Positions 16,607-63,310 of a stretch of DNA of 64,000 nucleotides are shown piece by piece (the first letter of the stretch is position 1; each line of letters opens with the position of its first letter). This DNA comes from Sipunculus nudus (lineage: Eukaryota; Annelida; Sipuncula; Golfingiida; Sipunculidae). The DNA is taken from assembly GCA_026874595.1 (NCBI GenBank), contig CM049307.1, forward strand, positions 33,522,862 to 33,586,861, read 5' to 3'. The notes below the pieces were generated by a model. It had not been told where the DNA came from and searched no databases. It worked only from the letters and a program-made list of their open reading frames with translations. A program made the position numbers and the translations under genes.

Positions 16607-17693
16607 AACACACACATATAATATATATACATATATATATATATATTGATGATCTAAACCTTGTTTCAGTTTTGATTCTCCTCTTTCATTCAGCACACCT
16701 ACAGCGTCCAGCATATAAGAGGCTTCCTCATAAGAAAATAAAGCTTTATCAGATAGAAAAATAGATGTTTATTGATATTTGTTTTATCCATAAATGGTCT
16801 AGACGGAGGAATCTTGTAAAGACAAATGCTCCCATAACAGATTATTGATTTATTTCAGAAATACAGTTTCGTTCCATAACAGATTAATGAAGGTGTCACT
16901 TACAATTGTTATCTGTCAAAGACAGCGATTAAAGAAGTAATGTTTCATCTAACTAGACATTATCTTTTTACTATAGGAAGCTAATTGTATCAATAATTAC
17001 CATGGTTGATGAAAACACATCCACCTACAAATTCTGTTTGATGAAAGCTCCACTTTGGTGAAGACCAGAATCCCTAAAGACTTGGGGTTTCTTCAAGTTT
17101 ATAAATAGAATGATGTATTGTATAAAAGTAGCAGTGATGATTATTATGACAAGGTTGTCAGAAAAATAAATACCAGATAATAATAGGCAGACATGTGAAC
17201 ATTGAGTTGACTTTGCTATTGTAACTTCCCTTAAATGGCTTTCCCATTGTAGTTCCTCAGTTGTCCACTGGTCCCAGACACACATTGGTTTTTGTCAGCT
17301 TTCTGTTATTCATTGATTTATCATTTCATGTTTAGGAGTCCTGTAGACAATTTTTTTTTTGTTCTTAGAGAGTTGCATCATCCAACTTAGAGGTCCTGGA
17401 GATAATGTGGTTTTAATTACTTTCCTGGTCTCCATTTCACACTTTTGTGAAGTCATCCTTTCATTGCCTAAAATAACTTTTTCACCAAGTCCTTGAGAAG
17501 AATTTGTTTTATACAAGCATCTTCCTCATACTTTCATTGACTGTATTTCCTTATTTAAAGATCCTAGAATTGATGACTTCACAAGTTGGCAACTAATTGA
17601 AATAATCATTATGTTTTCACTGGTTGTTCATCATAACAAGCTACAAGTTTGTAGATGACCTCATCTAATCTTGTTACATTTCTGAAATAACCA
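12721..17693. other. Probable intron with a (TA)n/(CA)n microsatellite
   Basis: No convincing exon was found, although one is expected if both 12658-12720 and 17985-18100 belong to one transcript. A compound TA/CA/TA microsatellite occupies 16574-16646. The 148-codon frame at 14523-14969 is AT-driven, overlaps other open frames and has no motif. Confidence 0.5.
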
Positions 17694-17984
17694 TGATGTT
17701 GTTATTTTTTCCATCTTTGCGGGTCCTGGTATTTAAAATGATTTTGTTATTTTTCTGTCTGTACAGGTCCTGGTACTTACAATAATGTTGTTATTTTTTT
17801 CCATCTTTGCAGGTCCTGGTTTTTTTTGATGATGTTGTTATTTTTTCAGATCCTAGTACTTCGATGATGATGTTATTTTTTTTTGTATTTGCGGGTCCAG
17901 GTACTTTTGATTATGTTGTTGTTTTTTCTGCCTTTGCATGTTCTGGTATTTTCGATGATGTTGTTATTTTTTCCATCTTTGCAG
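17694..17984 (+). repeat. Tandem array of duplicated 3' splice-site copies
   Basis: Seven degenerate copies, about 37-47 bases apart, of a unit reading GATGTTGTTATTTTTTCC, ATCTTTGCAG, GTCCTGGTACTT. The last copy is the real intron-exon junction at 17985. Copies start near 17694, 17738, 17783, 17828, 17872, 17912 and 17955. The unit therefore contains the polypyrimidine tract, the AG and the first codons (PGTY) of the exon. An intact AG is kept in the copies ending at 17766, 17812 and 17849. In the others it has changed to GG or TG. Splicing at 17849 would extend the exon by 135 bases, 45 codons in frame, with no stop. Splicing at 17766 or 17812 is out of frame. Confidence 0.85.
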
Positions 17985-18100
17985 GTCCTGGTACTTACAA
18001 TCAGAAGATGAAAAAGGACCATCCTGGAGGCCTGATGGTCACCAAAGACAAACGCTTTAAGGAATACAAAAGCGAAGTGCCTGGTCCAGGAACATACGAG
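17985..18100 (+). CDS. STPG1: Internal exon of a sperm-tail PG-rich repeat (SHIPPO/STPG) protein
   Basis: The exon encodes 38 complete residues beginning PGTYNQKMKKDHPGG and ending SEVPGPGTYE. It contains two PG-T-Y motifs, the second being the full PGPGTY signature of the sperm-tail PG-rich repeat family, separated by a basic segment with KDKRF, the usual xxRF position of these repeats. The acceptor is TTTCCATCTTTGCAG and the donor is GAG|GTCAGT. The exon starts after the first base of a Gly codon and ends on a codon boundary. Proteins of this family are associated with sperm tails and microtubules; STPG1/MAPO2 has also been linked to apoptosis after O6-methylguanine damage. STPG1 as the precise member is inference from the repeat together with the probable last exon. 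The acceptor is preceded by six degenerate copies of itself, which makes alternative 3' splice choice plausible. Confidence 0.75.
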
Positions 18101-61309: not shown

Positions 61310-63310
61310 CAGTCAAGACGTGAGCTAACGGTGATATCACTGTGAGATCACACAAAACTCACACGGTGAGCTCACAACAGTGAGATCCTGATGATCTCAC
61401 TGTGAGCTCATCTTGCGATATATCATATTGTGACGACACTGTGATGTCACTGTGTGGTCACCATACACTTACACTCATATGGCTAAAAGGCAAAGGAATG
61501 TAATACAAGAACATTGGGTCATAAAATTTAATGTGTATTATTGCTTACTACAATTTTTATGCGATCTGATCGAAATCTGAATAAACAGTCACAGTGAGCT
61601 CCCGATGACCTCACTGTGACCTCATGTTGTGATATATCATATTGTGACAACGCTGTGATGTCACTGTGAAGTCACCATACAAACACATGCATATGGTTAA
61701 CAAGGCAAAGAAATGTAGCACTAGAATAATTTGATATAATATTTAATTAGATTTACTGCATATTACATTTTTTATACGACCTGAGTAAAATCTAAATAAA
61801 CATAACAGTGAGCTCTCCATGACCTCACTGTGACCTTATGTTGTGATATATCATATTGTGACGACACTGTGATGTCACTGTGAGGTCACCATATACTCAC
61901 ACACATATAGCTAAACAGGCAAAGAAATGTAACACTAGAATAATGTGATATAATATTAAATGAGATTTATTGCATGATTACATTTTTTATGCGGTCTTAT
62001 CAATTTTAAATAAACAGTCATAGTGAGCTCTCAATGACCTCAATGTGACCTCATGTTGTGATTTATCATATTGTGACCACACTGTGATGTCACTGTGAGG
62101 TCACCATACACTCACGCGCATATGACTGAAAAGGCAAAGAAATGTAGCACTAGAAAAATGTGATATAAACTTAATTGATTTTTATTGCATACTACAAATT
62201 TTTTTCATGCTGTCTAATAATTTTTAAATAAACAGTCACAGTAAGCTCTTGATTACCTCAATGTGACCTCATGCTGTGATAATTTGTATTGTGACGACAC
62301 TGTGATGTCACTGTGAGGTCACCATACACACATGCGCATATGGTTAAAAAGGCAAAGAAATGTAGCACTAGAATAATGTGATATAATATTAAATGAGATT
62401 TACTGCATATTACATTTTTTATACGACCTGAGTAAAATCTAAATAAACAGAACAGAGAGCTCTCCATGACCTCACTGTGACCTCATGTTGTGATATATCA
62501 TATTGTGACGACACTGTGATGTCACTGTGAGGTCACCATACACTCATACGCATATAGCTAAACAGGCAAAGAAATGTAACACTAGAATAATGTGATATAA
62601 TATTAAATGAGATTTATTGCATGTTACATTTTTTATGCAGTCTTATCAACTTTGAATAAACAGTCATAGTGAGCTCTCAATGACCTCACTGTGACCTCAT
62701 GTTGTGATTCATCATATTGTGACCACACTGTGATGTCACTGTGGGGTCACCATACACTCACGCGCATATGACTGAAAAGGCAAAGAAATGTAGCACTAGA
62801 ATAATGTGATATAATATTAAATGAGATTTATTGCATATTACATTTTTTATATGATCTGAGCACAATCTAAATAAACAGAACAGTTAGCTCTTGATTACCT
62901 CACTGTGATCTCATGTTGTGATATATCATATTGTGACGACACTGGTTAAAAGGGCAAAGAAATGAACCACTAGAATTATTTGAAATCAACTTGAAATGTA
63001 AAGGGTTTATTGCGCAGGCCTACTACGAGATTTATCTTATGATCTCTAAAAAATCTATATATACAGTAAGAGTGAACTATTTATTTCCTCACTGTGACCT
63101 CATGTTGGGATATATTATATTGTGACGACATTGTGATGTCACTGTGGGATCACCATACACTGGCATGCATGTGGTTGAAAAAGGAAAAAACGTGAACCAC
63201 CAGAATTATTTGAAATAAAATGTAAAGGGGTTTATTGCATACTGCAAGTTTTATCATGCGATCTCTTAAATTCTAAATAAACAGCCAACTCTCGATGACC
63301 TCGGCGGGGC
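61310..63310. repeat. 214 bp satellite array with trimeric higher-order structure
   Basis: The phrase TGACGACACTGTGATGTCAC (with variants) begins at 61431, 61645, 61859, 62074, 62292, 62506, 62720, 62934 and 63123. The period is 214-218, except the last step (189), where an internal deletion follows 62944. Units 2, 3 and 4 resemble units 5, 6 and 7 respectively more than their neighbours, giving a ~647 bp trimer. Examples: ATACGACCTGAGTAAAATCT in units 2 and 5; CATATAGCTAAACAGGC in 3 and 6; CGCGCATATGACTGAAAAGG in 4 and 7. The left edge (61310-61430) is rich in GTGAGCTCAC-type palindromes. The array ends near TCGGCGGGGCGTTAGC. No coding capacity. Confidence 0.9.

Follow-up and report, generated by a model that had tools for sequence, protein, structure and literature searches.

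Mirage minisatellites are tandem repeats of intron-exon boundaries, and the accessible part of the amphioxus report describes them in Adh3 and in the globin genes BflGb6 and BflGb9 (PMC3087553). Further mirage cases from lancelets are PGBD5, Adh, and troponin C, according to an excerpt of PMC3902484. RT-PCR suggested that the amphioxus arrays leave splicing undisturbed (passages of PMC3087553 and PMC3902484), and it has been suggested that junction arrays supply the material from which new introns arise (PMC3087553, same part). In potato, an RdRp gene gained an intron when a segment spanning an intron-exon boundary was duplicated in tandem, a gain that the excerpted article supports with RNA (PMC4974935). 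A model of intron gain by duplication of AGGT proto-splice sites was put forward by Rogers in 1989, as summarized in sections of PMC4974935 and PMC2891723. The available portion of a report on earthworm metallothionein describes intronic minisatellites and mentions none over a junction (PMC12783039). A limited and partial literature search found no printed case of junction minisatellites outside cephalochordates, and priority is not claimed.

A comparable array is found in Sipunculus nudus, in a stretch of 64,000 nucleotides (the window) that has a single match in the assembly, at C2:33522862-33586861; a C2 coordinate is the window coordinate plus 33522861, negative window coordinates included. 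The array covers 17693-17998 at the start of exon 10 of a gene that we take to be STPG2-like. It is quite likely a mirage-type minisatellite in which the working junction is at 17984/17985 and the upstream copies are spliced out and decay neutrally.

With 100 kb added on each side of the window, ten exons found by profile, motif, and phase join in phase to give 540 codons without a stop. Exons 1 to 4 are located at -76415..-76304, -75745..-75624, -72001..-71837, and -71367..-71203, exons 5 to 7 at -69448..-69221, -68525..-68412, and -61576..-61417, and exons 8 and 9 at -46401..-46148 and -2604..-2421. Exon 10 (GPGTYNQKMKKDHPGGLMVTKDKRFKEYKSEVPGPGTYE), placed by Pfam profile and phase at 17985..18100 of the plus strand, is entered in phase 1 and left in phase 0 with the donor gtcagtca. 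The same octamer follows exons 7 and 8, and the gene appears to extend past 18100. A simple scan 3' of 18100 gave four candidates for exon 11, none of them convincing. The spliced protein of 540 residues matches SHIPPO-rpt (PF07004) with 74.3 bits (E 6.3e-21), above the Pfam gathering score (cut-off 20), and exon 10 alone reaches 21 bits, barely above the cut-off. Exon 9 ends with DPSNP and the first base of a Gly codon, and the remainder from 17985 gives PGPGTYN; the resulting repeat across exons 9 and 10, DPSNPGPGTYNQ, is the best SHIPPO match of the protein (residues 500-516). A PDB search with the whole protein gave no match at E 0.01, and exon 10 alone gave a single weak match, 9y6s chain 4F (E 1.5e-4). 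Searches of the literature on STPG2 and on duplicated splice sites with the scanning model returned nothing bearing on the exon 10 array.

Tandem Repeats Finder reports 17693-17998 as a tandem array with a period of 45, 7.0 copies, 70% matches, 10% indels, and a score of 270. Each unit features a polypyrimidine tract, an AG, and GPGTY codons, and the last copy ends at 17984. With the junction set by the phased exons, the unit of ~45 bp consists of ~28 nt from the 3' end of intron 9 and ~17 nt from the start of exon 10. The junction equivalents of the seven diverged copies, all on the plus strand, are spaced 44, 46, 37, 45, 45, and 45 bp apart. The AG is kept as CAG in copy 2 (17765..17766), copy 3 (17811..17812), copy 4 (17848..17849, with a 9-nt deletion in the tract), and copy 7 (17983..17984), that is, in 4 of the 7 copies; the sequence reads CGG in copies 1 (17721..17722) and 5 (17893..17894) and CAT in copy 6 (17938..17939), so AG has been lost to GG, GG, and AT in 3 of the 6 upstream copies. 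Chance likeness of T-rich sequence is ruled out as the source of the array, as comparison of the exon 10 junction segment with the 300 bp upstream of it gives a score of 79 and the best of 60 dinucleotide shuffles scores 30. Gapped identity to copy 7 is 93, 89, 93, and 91% for copies 1 to 4 (42/45, 39/44, 38/41, and 32/35) and clearly lowest, 79 and 78%, for copies 5 and 6 (34/43 and 35/45). Copy 4 is only 66% identical to copy 7 when compared ungapped, the 91% being reached apart from the 9-nt deletion. The earlier note on this DNA had described a seven-fold tandem duplication of the 3' splice junction with the last copy as the true one and with AGs kept upstream at 17766, 17812, and 17849; the count of 7.0 copies, 17985 as the best junction, and the sequence itself bear this out.

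The splice signals of the copies were compared with an acceptor weight matrix trained on exons 2-9, which is rough, as it rests on only eight sites. Copy 7 scores 12.6, copy 3 scores 9.8, and copies 2 and 4 score 7.4 each; among the 14,846 AGs in the 264-kb region, 0.13% score as high as copy 7, 0.59% as high as copy 3, and 1.9% as high as copies 2 and 4 in each case. The leave-one-out scores of exons 2-9 reach only -0.1 to 7.7, and copies 2, 3, and 4 therefore look usable. Array copies without an AG still score 6.3-8.9. The highest acceptor score, combined with the PGPGTYN that spans exons 9 and 10, supports 17985 as the best junction, and copy 7, which completes the phased ten-exon frame, is most likely the authentic 3' splice site. 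Copy 3 features a branch-like CTTAC 33 nt upstream of its AG; this motif belongs to the exonic ACTTAC of copy 2. For copy 7 the nearest yTnAy motif is TTGAT at a distance of 74 nt, and the AG-free stretch before it is 83 nt. The placement of branch-like motifs varies across exons 2-9, and in the range of 15-80 nt exon 4 lacks one. The idea of AG exclusion is discussed in the excerpted text of PMC1431707. Since copy 3 combines CTTAC with a strong tract and AG and the motif of copy 7 is distant, copy 3 would be preferred if AGs were chosen in order from upstream, and some use of it, with a frameshift, is possible. Copies 2 and 3 were rejected as productive splice sites: joins at 17767 and 17813 break the phase and meet stops.

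The copy at 17849 is a different case. It adds exactly 135 nt to the exon (17850-17984), in frame and without a stop, as the earlier note had stated; the claim is correct but weak. The note had also regarded the array as a visible intermediate in the gain of repeats by the protein, in which 17849 would serve as an alternative acceptor and 45 in-frame residues would be included in some transcripts. Such an ongoing exonisation would be favoured by the intact AG, the T-rich tract, the acceptor score of 7.4, which is at the top of the range of exons 2-9, and the frame that is open over 45 codons. However, chance suffices for an open frame. With the observed differences of 22, 10, and 0 from the last 45-nt block, the frame of 17850-17984 survives 60% of random trials; it is open in 58-85% of simulations at a uniform divergence of 15-30%, and under AT-biased change in 70% at 20% divergence and 48% at 30% divergence. 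An open frame expected by chance at ~0.6 is therefore no evidence of coding, and frame preservation was rejected as a sign of it. The differences look neutral, as 11 of the 51 pairwise differences among the three 45-nt blocks are synonymous (0.216, against 0.222 expected at random), a count that comes from three block pairs that are not independent. The would-be extension consists mostly of copies 5 and 6, the two that have diverged furthest from the true junction, and neither they nor the synonymous share shows coding constraint on the added segment. When exon 9 is joined to 17850 the phase is kept, but the product (NPDPSTSMMMLFFF; ...DPSNPDPSTSMMMLFFFVFAGPGTF...) lacks the PGPGTY motif, which is broken, and the extended exon scores 18.8 bits for SHIPPO-rpt versus 21 for the plain exon with a cut-off of 20. 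The 45 added residues have a GRAVY of 1.35, whereas no window of this length in the protein exceeds -0.29, and PG motifs are spaced 15 residues apart in the array versus 33-65 in the protein (the search pattern misses the first motif of the protein). Only one of the three upstream AGs is in frame. These tests speak against a coding role of 17850-17984; the proposal of an intermediate in repeat gain is not supported, and an exonisation in progress is considered unlikely, although 17849 may be used as a minor acceptor.

The extra acceptors could instead tune expression, with occasional use of copy 2 or 3 leading to a frameshift, stops, and decay of the transcript. Copy 3, with its strong score and well-placed branch-like motif, would be suited to this role, and both copies lead to early stops; however, the AG has already been lost in three of the six upstream copies and conservation is unsupported, which makes such tuning very unlikely. 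An assembly artefact is the least probable explanation: tandem arrays are prone to misassembly and the draft genome of amphioxus contained the BflGb6 array (PMC3087553, accessible part), but the copies here differ mutually at 9-47% of 32 ungapped positions and stuttered or collapsed reads are therefore an unlikely source, although the copy number itself could still be wrong.

The reading preferred here is thus that of spliced-out, decaying copies of a working junction. Unequal exchange or replication slippage, which we infer to have made the copies, would have duplicated, head to tail and towards the intron, ~28 nt of the end of intron 9 together with ~17 nt of the start of exon 10. The exon-proximal copy at 17984/17985 would remain the working splice site because it alone among the copies is held by selection, and the six upstream copies would be intronic, removed with the intron, and free to decay at the neutral rate. 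Splicing presumably takes place at 17984 almost exclusively. The exon 10 array is probably a decaying and harmless repeat of the kind known from amphioxus and not a sign of a protein gaining repeats. A gain of an intron by the AGGT route was also considered at this array and rejected; GTs such as CAGGTCCTG appear by eye to be poor donors, and no new exon is implied.

A scan of 19 junctions of the ten exons (the start of exon 1 being left out) against 300-bp flanks, with 60 shuffles each, revealed two that stand out, the exon 10 acceptor with the scores given above and the exon 2 donor, which scores 84 against a shuffle maximum of 23. The exon 3 acceptor is slightly above its shuffles (24 vs 22) and the other 16 junctions are not. 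Tandem Repeats Finder places the exon 2 donor array at -75646..-75447 (C2:33447215-33447414, locus L034), with a 48-bp unit, 4.2 copies, and 87% match. The donors GTAAGT, GTAAAT, GTAAGT, and GTAAGT follow -75624, -75576, -75528, and -75480, so GT is kept in all four, and they score 10.8, 5.1, 10.8, and 10.8 in the same order. The donors are in frame and the sequence between them is open; use of the later donors would therefore add 16, 32, or 48 residues. For this array the frame stays open in 39-72% of simulations, and 6 of its 19 differences are synonymous versus an expected 0.211, too small a number for a judgement. Of the two arrays, the one at the exon 2 donor is the better candidate for a possible gain of repeats by the protein.

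Relatives of the gene were collected by a PF07004 profile search of the genome, which gave at least 34 matches, 30 of them as loci. Sixteen further junctions in the relatives were placed by eye as open frames ending at AG or GT and are putative; they were compared with 100 shuffles each. Left out were near-identical gene copies, the C7 locus, a weak C5 match, the unclear donor of L027, and the donor of L030, which lies at the very end; for the first acceptor of L019 the upstream flank is too short for the test. Arrays were found at 2 of the 16 junctions, both on C6. The L019 donor (20 vs 19) and the L030 acceptor (23 vs 22) are one point above their shuffles and were not counted, and two L053 junctions, for which Tandem Repeats Finder alone was used, show no junction array. 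In one C6 gene (L029/L022) the donor AAAG/GTACAA lies in a 33-bp unit that is present in ~52 copies at C6:19626881-19628581. This array of 1,700 bp is almost all within an intron of 2,137 bp (C6:19626893-19629029), the only one among the relatives in which the phase was checked, by eye; it makes up ~80% of the intron, and 44 AGGT remain. Within the GT, the G agrees in 88% of units and the T in 100%, compared to a mean of 88% for the other positions, and the donors are therefore not clearly held or removed. A second C6 gene, likewise of the PG-rich repeat type, features a putative donor, CCAC/GTGAGT, within a 41-bp unit of 1.9 copies (L020 1608-1686; copy L021). Four neighbouring genes at C1:92.05-92.09 Mb (L003-L005, L009-L013, L015-L018) are rich in PG repeats, with open frames of 256 codons, and feature 25-bp arrays of a junction-like AACAG/GTAAATC upstream of the ATG, with ~3-19 copies in the stretches seen.

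In total, an array is present at 4 of the 35 junctions compared by alignment (19 of the gene and 16 of its relatives), a count that includes the exon 10 array itself and comes from genes of one family. Minisatellites with a unit of 20-100 bp and a score of 100 or more account for 1.75% of the 264-kb region, or 2.2% when the relatives are included. By this coverage the probability of 4 in 35 is 0.008, or 0.002 when the coverage is computed without the four arrays; by the coverage of the gene's own span (3.5%), 2 in 19 has a probability of 0.14. The exon 2 donor array and the two arrays in the relatives point to a general process at junctions. A stronger proposal is that junction arrays are a common and ongoing feature of this genome and a standing source of alternative splice sites, in which the exon 2 donors, 48 bp apart, would already give isoforms with 0-3 extra repeats of 16 residues, and 17693-17998 would be their more decayed counterpart towards the opposite end of the gene; this is regarded as improbable.

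Among the 19 minisatellite entries for the 264-kb region, AG/GT motifs are too scarce for an interpretation. A 56-bp minisatellite of 18 copies in intron 6 (-63731 to -62701) has a minus-strand consensus with a strong donor-like TGGGTAAGT and adjoins no known exon. A 52-bp minisatellite of 25 copies in intron 7 (-49784 to -48506), ~2 kb before exon 8, has a consensus with CAGGTGGGA and CAGGTATAC. Within the window, at 61377-62944, a 214-bp tandem repeat of 7.3 copies has a consensus rich in TGACCTCACTGTGA-like motifs.

What is new here is the gene's second array, at the exon 2 donor, and the two arrays in relatives, in one of which an intron repeats its own 5' splice site ~52 times. Of more interest than the exon 10 array are the apparent frequency of junction arrays in the genome and the array at the exon 2 donor. 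Arrays of duplicated junctions are natural versions of the choice that the spliceosome makes among near-identical sites, and four of them in a small sample, one with ~52 copies, would offer a system for measuring site choice and evolutionary fate by RNA-seq.

The closest likeness is to the amphioxus mirages, in which boundaries are repeated at either end of an exon and many copies keep AG or GT (excerpts of PMC3087553 and PMC3902484). Mirage units are tandem, span both intron and exon of a junction, and may range from ~10 to 160 bp; the unit here is ~45 bp. AG or GT is expected in many copies and not necessarily in all of them, and here AG is found in 4 of 7 copies at exon 10 and GT in 4 of 4 at the exon 2 donor. 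As judged from these features, the exon 10 array fits the structural definition of a mirage. The Adh3 units of 10-72 bp are of the size seen here and the PGBD5 copies are imperfect, as they are here (same parts of PMC3087553 and PMC3902484). In contrast to amphioxus, the present gene is a sperm-tail PG-rich repeat gene in a 1.43-Gb genome, it has two arrays, and a relative has ~52 copies. For amphioxus the accessible text reports length instability and undisturbed splicing, whereas the present array is known from its sequence alone. The potato RdRp case is alike in that the duplicated segment consists of the 3' end of an intron and the 5' start of an exon and that branch site, tract, and AG are inherited; however, the potato copy became a new exon and intron (PMC4974935, excerpt), and the extra copies here lie within the old intron, where no new exon is seen. 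The AGGT model shares with these arrays the tandem copies that feature AG/GT (sections of PMC4974935 and PMC2891723). It differs in that the present arrays derive from a splice junction that already existed and not from DNA internal to an exon, and that no gained intron position was found.
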